Below are positions 34,442-38,762 of a stretch of DNA of 64,000 nt, piece after piece. Source of the DNA: Saprospiraceae bacterium (GTDB taxonomy: Bacteria; Bacteroidota; Bacteroidia; Chitinophagales; Saprospiraceae); the NCBI GenBank assembly GCA_020631355.1, contig JAHDHL010000001.1:235616-299615 (forward strand), read 5' to 3'. The number at the start of each line of letters is the position of its first letter. Positions within the stretch are counted from its first letter, which is position 1. A program made the position numbers and the translations under genes. The notes below the pieces were generated by a model. It did no database searches, was not told the DNA's origin, and worked only from the letters and a program-made list of their open reading frames with translations.

Positions 34442-34606
34442 TGAAATGCTGTATTGAAGAGGTATGAATTAATACAATTTAGATGTACCAATTGTTCCTT
34501 GGATTGGAGTTTATTGGATATGCTCTGCAATTTTCAAGTCTATCGCAAAGCAACCATTCCTTAAATTATTCCGTCTTGGAAAAAACACATGCAAAATTCA
34601 TCCCCT

Positions 34607-35557
34607 ATGAAACAACTATTATTCCTCACCTTAATTTCCTTTTTGTCATCATTTTCTTTCGCCCAAGAAAATGATGACAATTTCTTTTTCAAGACAAGTA
34701 ATGATTCATTAGGAAAATCCTACGGCATGGCATTAATGCCTCCTGTTTTCGATACCATTACAATCAAAAAAATCACCCAATATAAAACAGGACATTCATA
34801 CCCTATCCTCAATATTAAAACCGACACAATCTATAGTGATAGTTTCATCCTAACCCAACCTAATCATTATCACATAATAAAAGAATATGCTGACACTATC
34901 CATCGAATAGAATTATTCCAAGAAAGATACTCATGGTTAGATAGTAAGGCTTGCAATCATAATTATGAATATGTAACGGAGACTTATATTCTACAAGACG
35001 AGCATCAATCCTGGCATTTCGAAAAAGGATTTTTCTTGAATAGCGAAAATTGGAAAATAAAAAAACACCCTCCACTATATGCGACTAGGATTCTGAAAGT
35101 AGTAAAATCTCCTTGTGACCCGAGAACAAACATAAACCCTGCGCAATACCGAACTGTAATTTATGTAAAACCCCACAAGGATATTAAGGATTGGCAAATG
35201 AAAAACATCAATTCTTTGTGTAAAAAATATAGGGTCATCAAAAATATAACCAGGACAACGGGCTTTACAACCACTCCTGAAATCACTGAAAATTTCACCA
35301 GTAAAAAACTGATAAAAAACTCAAGGAAAGCATTGATTGAAATCCAATCCAACATCCAGAATAAAGAATTAAAGCTCATTCAAAAACAACTATATTATTT
35401 TGGCCATTTCAATGGCCAAATATCCGGAACACTTGACGAACCAACCCAGATAGCCATATTGGATTATCAATACAGAAACAACTTACCTATCGGGCAAATA
35501 CACCAGAAGTTCATCCAGCATATACTAAGTCGCAAAACTCCTTTCAATCCTATATAA
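34607..35557 (+). CDS. Exported protein with peptidoglycan-binding-like C-terminus
   Basis: 316 residues from ATG 34607 (signal peptide MKQLLFLTLISFLSSFSFAQ). The body is not recognised. The last 75 residues fit a PG_binding_1-like fold: KLIQKQLYYFGHFNGQISGTLD, then TQIAILDYQYRNNLP and IHQKFIQHI. The composition is somewhat AT-rich (18 G/C in 34741-34800). The next gene also acts on peptidoglycan, so together they look like a wall-related pair. An 17-bp hairpin follows the stop. The function beyond possible wall attachment is unknown. Confidence 0.75.
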   Translation: MKQLLFLTLISFLSSFSFAQENDDNFFFKTSNDSLGKSYGMALMPPVFDTITIKKITQYKTGHSYPILNIKTDTIYSDSFILTQPNHYHIIKEYADTIHRIELFQERYSWLDSKACNHNYEYVTETYILQDEHQSWHFEKGFFLNSENWKIKKHPPLYATRILKVVKSPCDPRTNINPAQYRTVIYVKPHKDIKDWQMKNINSLCKKYRVIKNITRTTGFTTTPEITENFTSKKLIKNSRKALIEIQSNIQNKELKLIQKQLYYFGHFNGQISGTLDEPTQIAILDYQYRNNLPIGQIHQKFIQHILSRKTPFNPI

Positions 35558-35560
35558 ACA

Positions 35561-35598
35561 CTAAGAATCACCTTTTCTAAGGAAAAGGTGATTCTTAG
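35561..35598. terminator. Long hairpin after the PG-binding-like gene
   Basis: A perfect 17-bp stem (35561-35577 with 35582-35598) closes loop TAAG, starting 3 bp after the stop codon. A T tract is not immediate but TTTTT follows at 35611-35615. It is likely the end of the transcript, less certain than the other terminators. Confidence 0.6.
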
Positions 35599-35627
35599 CT
35601 GACTGCTTCCTTTTTCACCCCAAACAA

Positions 35628-35663
35628 AATTATCAACAAAATAAAATTATTTTGTTGATAATT
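35628..35663. repeat. Long AT-rich inverted repeat upstream of the glucosaminidase gene
   Basis: A perfect 17-bp inverted repeat (35628-35644 with 35647-35663) with only two bases between the arms. It lies 82 bp upstream of the next start. The pattern (ATTATTTTGTTG) could act as an operator or extruded cruciform; no function is established. Confidence 0.8.
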
Positions 35664-35744
35664 AATTGGTGACCATTAAACATTTTGGTTAAAAAATGGA
35701 ACGTGATTTAGGTATTTTTTGTTTTTATATTAAACGCCTTAATC

Positions 35745-36467
35745 ATGAAATTAATTCAGCAAAAAATAATTCAATCCAAACATTTATTGAATGTTTATTT
35801 ACATCAATTTTCAGGTAATTTAAAACTAAATGGTTTTAAATATTTAATTATTATTTTCGCAGGATTAATCATTTCCACAAAAGATGTGGATTTCCAATTA
35901 AAATTAACAAAAAACGAAACGAATCAAAAAACAAACCATACAGATAGTTTAATACAAAAAATATCTTTTTCAGAAAAAGAACAACCCCCTAAACCACAAT
36001 TAATAAAATACACATCAGAAAAAGAAAAAAGATTTTTATCATATATTGATAAAAACCATAAATTAGCTATTATAGAAATGAAAAAATATAAAATACCTGC
36101 CTCTGTAACATTGGCACAAGGTATTTTAGAAACAAATGGAGGAAAATCAAAATTAGCAACAAATTGCAATAATCATTTTGGAATAAAATGTTTTTCAAAA
36201 AAATGCAAAAAAGGACATTGCAAAAATTTCAGTGACGACTCACATAAGGATTTTTTCAGAAATTATTCTTCTACAAAAGAATCATACAGAGCTCATTCTA
36301 TTTTTCTACAAAAAAATAGATATAAAAAATTATTTAATTATAATTCTAAAGATTACAAATCCTGGTGTTACGAATTAAAAAATGCAGGTTATGCAACCGA
36401 CCCTAATTATCCCAATAAATTAATTTCAATTATTGAAAAATATAAACTTTATCAATTTGATGAATAA
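35745..36467 (+). CDS. AT-rich glucosaminidase-domain protein (FlgJ-like)
   Basis: 240 residues. One hydrophobic segment (KYLIIIFAGLIIS, about 33-45) anchors it to the membrane. After a low-complexity linker, the catalytic domain (about 85-240) is a glucosaminidase (Mannosyl-glycoprotein endo-beta-N-acetylglucosaminidase-like). It has SVTLAQGILETNGGKSKLA with the catalytic Glu, CNNHFGIKC, FRNYSSTKESYRAHSIFL and the GYATDPNYPNKLI region. Such enzymes cut between sugars in peptidoglycan. It lacks the C-terminal LysM domains common in family members. Base use is strikingly AT-rich compared with its neighbours (15 of 60 bases G/C at 35881-35940). The stop codon lies within the first of a set of inverted repeats. 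Confidence 0.88.
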   Translation: MKLIQQKIIQSKHLLNVYLHQFSGNLKLNGFKYLIIIFAGLIISTKDVDFQLKLTKNETNQKTNHTDSLIQKISFSEKEQPPKPQLIKYTSEKEKRFLSYIDKNHKLAIIEMKKYKIPASVTLAQGILETNGGKSKLATNCNNHFGIKCFSKKCKKGHCKNFSDDSHKDFFRNYSSTKESYRAHSIFLQKNRYKKLFNYNSKDYKSWCYELKNAGYATDPNYPNKLISIIEKYKLYQFDE

Positions 36468-36492
36468 ATCGAAATTCGATTTATTCATCAAA
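36456..36492. repeat. Inverted repeat 1 of the cluster, over the glucosaminidase stop codon
   Basis: Perfect 18-bp arms (36456-36473 and 36475-36492) with a single base between them. The left arm holds the last codons and stop of the glucosaminidase gene. Its right arm shares bases 36484-36492 with the left arm of repeat 2, so the two hairpins cannot form together. Confidence 0.85.
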
Positions 36493-36527
36493 AAATGCGG
36501 ATTAAATAATCCGCATTTTTTGATGAA
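36484..36527. repeat. Inverted repeat 2 of the cluster, overlapping repeat 1
   Basis: Perfect 21-bp arms (36484-36504 and 36507-36527) with two bases between. The core stem is ATGCGGATTA/TAATCCGCAT and it ends in a six-T run on the right arm, so it could terminate transcription. Confidence 0.88.
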
Positions 36528-36537
36528 ATATTTACGT

Positions 36538-36584
36538 TACAATTAATGGGTTTGGATACGATGTATCCAAACCCATTAATTGTA
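36538..36584. repeat. Inverted repeat 3 of the cluster
   Basis: Perfect 22-bp arms (36538-36559 and 36563-36584) around loop GAT. The arms contain TTAATGGGTTTGGATAC. No T tract follows, so it is unlike a plain terminator. Confidence 0.88.
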
Positions 36585-36652
36585 TTCACACTTTGATTCC
36601 CTCAACCATTCCTCCTTTACCTTGTTTCCCAATCATCCATCAATGAAGCTTG

Positions 36653-36694
36653 TCGCAATTGGATGTAGCGAATTTTCACTACATCCAATTGCGA
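36653..36694. repeat. Inverted repeat 4 of the cluster
   Basis: Perfect 16-bp arms (36653-36668 and 36679-36694; TCGCAATTGGATGTAG) over a 10-nt loop. It is about 50 bp upstream of the next start. A small CTTGAA/TTCAAG repeat follows (36698-36703 with 36716-36721). Confidence 0.85.

Positions 36695-36710: not shown

Positions 36711-38762
<2,052 letters not shown>

Follow-up and report, generated by a model that had tools for sequence, protein, structure and literature searches.

The four perfect inverted repeats that follow a glucosaminidase gene in the window (the whole 64,000-nucleotide stretch of DNA analysed, from a host with a 6.16-Mb draft genome) form the downstream side of a palindrome bracket belonging to one clade of GH73 glucosaminidases, whose other copies come from the host itself and from relatives, those with names being Saprospiraceae MAGs. 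Comparison of the copies suggests that the locus could be a heritable hotspot of replication template switching, which would both make palindromes and re-perfect them; we give this explanation a probability of roughly 0.48.

Palindromes around the glucosaminidase gene

The bracketed gene (35745-36467, plus strand) encodes a GH73 glucosaminidase (Pfam PF01832, E = 2e-36); it has a GC content of 23%, the lowest among 1,422 ORFs examined, and a GC3 of 14%. A repeat search placed the four downstream repeats exactly, to the base, where an earlier note on this DNA had put them. Palindrome 1 (arms 36456-36473 and 36475-36492, plus strand; 18-nt arms, 1-nt spacer, -19.0 kcal/mol) holds in its left arm the final codons and stop of the gene; that it covers the stop codon had been claimed and is correct (TAA at 36465-36467 of ORF 35745-36467). 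It does share nine bases (36484-36492) with palindrome 2 (arms 36484-36504 and 36507-36527, no strand assigned; 21-nt arms, 2-nt spacer, -26.5 kcal/mol), where a GC core is flanked by A6 and T6 (A6/U6 in RNA). The T run reported for this repeat is thus present, palindrome 2 is the sole member of the downstream four to have one, and by its form it is the most like an intrinsic terminator, namely a bidirectional one. Palindromes 3 (arms 36538-36559 and 36563-36584; 22-nt arms, 3-nt spacer, -31.0 kcal/mol) and 4 (arms 36653-36668 and 36679-36694; perfect 16-nt arms, 10-nt spacer, -27.0 kcal/mol), also with no strand assigned, have no T run; palindrome 4 can alternatively be read with 20-nt arms, one mismatch and a spacer of 2.

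Chance does not account for the four hairpins. The folding proposed in the earlier note was carried out and gave -100.5 kcal/mol for the 271-nt region against -41.7 +/- 4.1 for shuffled sequences (z = -14.4), and block-shuffled copies of the window contained no perfect inverted repeat longer than 12. Of the window's perfect repeats, 12 combine an arm length of 15 or more with a spacer no longer than 12, and seven of these fall within 2.1 kb (34643-36694); elsewhere in the window such repeats occur singly, in agreement with the contrast that had been drawn with ordinary terminators.

The earlier note missed two palindromes upstream of the gene and one in the preceding ORF. The first upstream palindrome (35561-35598, no strand assigned; 17-nt arms, 4-nt spacer) directly follows the stop of the preceding ORF and is terminator-like on the minus strand only; the second (35628-35663, no strand assigned; 17-nt arms, 2-nt spacer) is nearly all A/T. 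A promoter-like motif, GGAAC-N17-TGTTTT (35698-35725, plus strand), stands at -47 from the glucosaminidase start codon. The preceding ORF (34589-35557, plus strand), in which a domain search found a PG_binding_1 domain, contains its palindrome (34643-34680, plus strand; 16-nt arms, 6-nt spacer) at the junction of signal peptide and mature protein; this palindrome is not evident in aligned homologues, L187 and L167 differing at the site. Downstream, a perfect palindrome with 12-nt arms (37036-37059, plus strand) lies in the FadH-like coding sequence. The outer neighbours look like metH and a FadH-like gene, judging by sequence and by the naming in the earlier note, and the order metH - PG_binding_1 ORF - glucosaminidase is found at L187 too.

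Rarity in the host and restriction to one clade

Host DNA was read for hairpins in stretches, 1.87 Mb and then 2.27 Mb (37% of the genome). Clusters of at least three perfect repeats (arms of at least 14, within 300 bp) occur at two places in the 1.87 Mb, and both flank glucosaminidase paralogues: the window gene and C130:34261-35052, the latter sitting between thyA and a GDPD gene; as the C130 stretch was chosen for its paralogue, the fair claim is that nothing else examined matches. A search of the 2.27 Mb that tolerated mismatches gave 289 long hairpins and only three overlapping hairpin pairs, all at the two bracketed genes. Among the 1,422 ORFs of the 1.87 Mb, these two genes rank lowest in GC content (0.23 and 0.26 vs 0.415 +/- 0.029 among ORFs; GC3 0.14 and 0.21 vs 0.43). 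As a side observation, hairpins on both sides of an apparent tRNA gene, downstream of a parB-like gene, were seen at G000:C114:252716-253033.

Comparison of 85 glucosaminidase loci (80 from genome contigs and five from the host) placed 11 of them in a single clade, whose members are similar over their full length, the N-terminal membrane segment included; L197, a contig-edge fragment, is counted among the 11. All 11 copies have palindromes downstream, and upstream palindromes (at least one hairpin each, with 12-nt arms and one or two mismatches allowed) are present in every copy that has upstream sequence; these counts include related sequences and cover one genus, with nine genomes, several of them incomplete, and mechanical ORFs. 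A single simple terminator at this place in relatives, which the earlier note had named as the finding that would speak against its reading, was looked for and is not what the relatives have. The remaining 74 homologues have either no hairpin or at most one per side. A quick tree separates the 11 bracketed genes from the rest by a branch with SH-aLRT support of 97, which indicates that the bracket has one origin on this tree. The clade genes are 6 to 19 GC points below their own flanks, whereas other homologues are never more than 6 below. Profile searches of 150 family and nine genus genomes recovered no further full-length members, scores falling from at least 373 to 288, and no clade member was found in two incomplete genus genomes. 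The order thyA-glucosaminidase-GDPD is kept in four species and the order metH-PGBD-glucosaminidase in two; since these neighbourhoods are conserved across species, the clade copies are vertically inherited. The clade proteins are about 51-59% identical to that of the window, from which we infer that low GC content and brackets have persisted while synonymous sites turned over many times.

The 260-nt flanks of the 11 loci contain 46 hairpins, with a mean arm of 18.6 nt, 72% of them perfect, and an arm GC content of 29%; 10 of the 25 neighbouring pairs overlap. AT-richness alone was rejected as their cause, as the same AT-rich flanks yielded 0.1 hairpins when shuffled, and hairpins are missing from the flanks of the nine further host genes whose GC content is below 0.31. 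In five copies a palindrome with a coding left arm spans the stop codon, and in the other copies the downstream palindrome begins within about 45 nt. Upstream members occur between divergent genes at C130-type loci and others. None of the 11 loci has a palindrome wholly inside the glucosaminidase gene. The number, position and spacing of the palindromes differ among copies, and the overlap of hairpins is absent or located elsewhere in copies other than that of the window; L186, L192 and L194 have no downstream overlapping pair or no stop-codon hairpin.

The stretch from the upstream palindromes to the start codon contains the motif GGAAC-N17-[TC]GTTT[AT] (GGAAC-N17-YGTTTW) at -46 to -68. It keeps the same spacing in 10 of the 10 testable clade copies, L191 having the variant GAAAC, and is absent from the 71 other homologues compared. 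A palindrome extends into the motif in L189 and L192. GGAAC is similar to the -35 element recognized by ECF sigma factors. A genome-wide regulon defined by the motif was considered and rejected, the motif showing no excess over a reversed control elsewhere in the host, outside the bracketed genes.

Two further observations concern loci outside the clade. L193, the sister of the bracketed clade, has a similar N-terminal segment and normal local GC content, with neither brackets nor the GGAAC-N17-YGTTTW motif, so that the three traits appear to arise together on one branch. At L365 (211-273, 1349-1404 and 2514-2567) and L218 (on the flanks of its gene), several inverted repeats of 22-27 nt with 8-12 nt spacers surround different, non-AT-rich glucosaminidase genes, and possibly represent another palindrome family.

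Sequence turnover and the origin of the palindromes

At conserved neighbourhoods, comparison of orthologues shows that the sequences of the hairpins change, while near-perfect pairing and arrangement persist. The upstream hairpin at C130 reads TATTTTG-TTAAATCGCTGA-AAA-TCAGCGATTTAA-CAAAATA and its orthologue at L186 reads TTTAA-TTAAATCACTGA-TTT-TCAGCGATTTAA-TTAAA. The core TTAAATCGCTGA/TCAGCGATTTAA is common to both, with one A-C mismatch in L186; the loop is AAA at C130 and its reverse complement TTT at L186, an apparent inversion (the single clear orthologous case); and the outer arms differ between the loci yet still pair, both arms having changed together. In the stop-codon hairpin, compared between C130 and L191, the left arm tracks the diverged codons and the right arm tracks the left. 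A palindrome within the GDPD coding sequence (L186:5873-5907 and the matching L191 site; 14-16 nt, two species) has one arm formed by the conserved DFDCG codons, which a variable stretch matches, and one A-T to G-C pair change between L186 and L191 affects both arms. All of these signatures were read from species that have diverged, with protein identities of about 50-60%. Coding sequences of neighbours contain eight palindromes in the 21.2 kb lying no more than 1.5 kb from the gene (nine were called by script, one being reassigned to a 5' leader) vs one in the next 63 kb (p = 1e-4), a small count that includes one homologous pair and uses mechanical ORFs; the rate in the host genome is 0.11 per 10 kb.

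Arm homogenization and spacer inversion are published signatures of template switching (PMC8604942), which can create perfect stems in one step (PMC8794818). The palindromes of the bracket have perfect or homogenized arms with short spacers, and their arms co-change between orthologues. At a template-switch hotspot, a nascent strand would fold back or jump and copy a nearby stretch as its reverse complement, giving a palindrome; subsequent switches between the arms would restore perfect pairing and at times invert the loop, and switches that run on would sometimes produce a second palindrome that takes the right end of the first as its own left end, an arrangement seen in hairpins 1 and 2. Those arising within the hydrolase gene would be purged by selection, while intergenic and some tolerant coding sites would retain them. 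The trigger would be local to the unit, e.g., strand opening in very AT-rich DNA or, alternatively, bursts of transcription from the unit's own promoter. Transcription of the unit is a candidate because transcription-linked hotspots are known in bacteria (PMC11838912) and RNA-DNA hybrids are reported to initiate quasi-palindrome mutation in yeast (PMC3820800).

A hotspot would account for the palindromes in neighbouring genes, their chaining, the co-changing arms and the rapid turnover. It alone gives no reason why palindromes stand beside every copy, at its borders, and never wholly inside; with none wholly inside the glucosaminidase gene, a hotspot centred on that gene would need selection. 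Against it, moreover, a blind process would not place palindromes so regularly beside the stop codon and just upstream of the motif, and brackets of this kind are not seen at the host's other AT-rich genes. The main rival is a selected, sequence-independent insulator, in which hairpins (RNA, cruciform DNA or both) would flank a privately regulated hydrolase gene and block read-through in both directions or protect the transcript, structure being selected while sequence drifts. Possible, if on the unlikely side, it would explain why hairpins stand at the stop codon and on the outer side of the promoter-like motif, why all 11 copies have them across duplications and divergence, and why none lies inside the gene, a GH73 autolysin being perhaps worth insulating. 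However, a T or A run of at least 5 is found in only 8 of 46 bracket hairpins, compared with 128 of the 278 long hairpins elsewhere in the genome (p = 2e-4), and mismatches on the sense strand (7 G-T vs 4 A-C) are too few for a test of RNA-level selection and give no clear preference for wobble pairs; palindromes also occur inside neighbouring coding sequence, and vary between copies in number, position and spacing. The hotspot and the insulator may both hold, mutation supplying palindromes and selection keeping them. That the clade delimits itself by palindromes under continual renewal, local mutation making them and selection retaining them because hairpins or cruciforms shield an AT-rich, privately regulated hydrolase gene from its neighbours, is a more doubtful proposition.

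The readings offered in the earlier note fared unevenly. That ordinary intrinsic terminators are stacked after one gene, with nothing more to it, seems improbable: hairpin 2 has the terminator form, and long perfect hairpins are the usual 3'-end signal of the host (105 per 285 convergent and 152 per 1136 tandem junctions), but clusters and overlaps are confined almost exclusively to the bracketed genes, most members have no U-tract, and some lie between divergent genes, where the host has six hairpins per 280 junctions, two of the six belonging to C130. The attenuation proposal, i.e., a conditional switch in which hairpins 1 and 2 would be alternative folds coupling translation at the stop codon to termination, is very unlikely, though the two arms do compete for their shared bases, full stems being mutually exclusive, and chained overlaps follow the stop in several copies. 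Within one transcript hairpin 1 can form its full stem while hairpin 2 retains 12 pairs, so that both can coexist, an overlapping pair or the stop-codon hairpin is missing from the three copies named above, and downstream gene order varies among copies. In the case of a structured small RNA, Rfam returned only weak matches below gathering thresholds, and the sequence is not conserved. Most remote, and not among the readings of the earlier note, is a mobile gene cassette or moron-like insertion with palindromes as its ends, for which the odd base composition, the motif, the hairpins at both ends and the copies at different loci would speak; the neighbourhoods conserved by vertical inheritance, the palindromes without shared sequence or other genome copies, and viral loci without brackets argue against it, as do matches in phages, plasmids and viral contigs that are distant or confined to the catalytic domain. 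Having matches below the level of the clade, a phage, plasmid or viral source was rejected. The nearest of the earlier proposals is a remnant of palindrome expansion, but the palindromes form a recurring bracket whose arrangement is conserved and whose sequence is renewed. Besides their possible origin at a template-switch hotspot, individual members such as hairpin 2 probably also terminate transcription.

Relation to known systems

Like intrinsic (Rho-independent) terminators, the brackets place a hairpin beside a stop codon, and hairpin 2 adds its GC core and T6; they differ in being mostly devoid of a U-tract, AT-rich in the stems, multiple, overlapping and present also upstream, between divergent genes. 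Phage morons, too, are self-contained AT-rich genes with their own promoter and hairpins at the end; here, in contrast, the genes are chromosomal and vertically inherited, with palindromes on both sides and no phage context. REP and BIME elements (PMC2817692, PMC3733652) are likewise clustered palindromes of 20-50 nt between genes, whereas the brackets have no sequence family and are tied to one gene; REP elements were excluded, as a search of the whole host genome for copies of the arms, which the earlier note had suggested, returned self-matches only. Coding palindromes of nematomorph mitochondria (PMC6649704) are similarly long and perfect, with arms kept identical, and are frequently gained and lost, but they are spread over the genome of an organelle, whereas those described here are local, on a bacterial chromosome and mostly outside the central gene. 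The closest likeness is with template-switch quasipalindromes (PMC8604942, PMC8794818, PMC7202029), which also have perfect, co-changing arms, short spacers and apparent loop inversion and reach into coding sequence; the known cases are scattered hotspots, unlike the grouping of palindromes around one gene clade, at each orthologue and paralogue. No account of a comparable gene bracket turned up in literature searches among open-licence papers.

Template switching is a known, usually scattered source of palindromes. Here palindromes recur at one gene, species by species and paralogue by paralogue within a genus, and the gene also has an extreme AT bias and a promoter-like motif of its own. The locus makes it possible to test what causes a lasting palindrome hotspot in bacteria, and whether selection can keep hairpins without conserved sequence as the borders of a gene.
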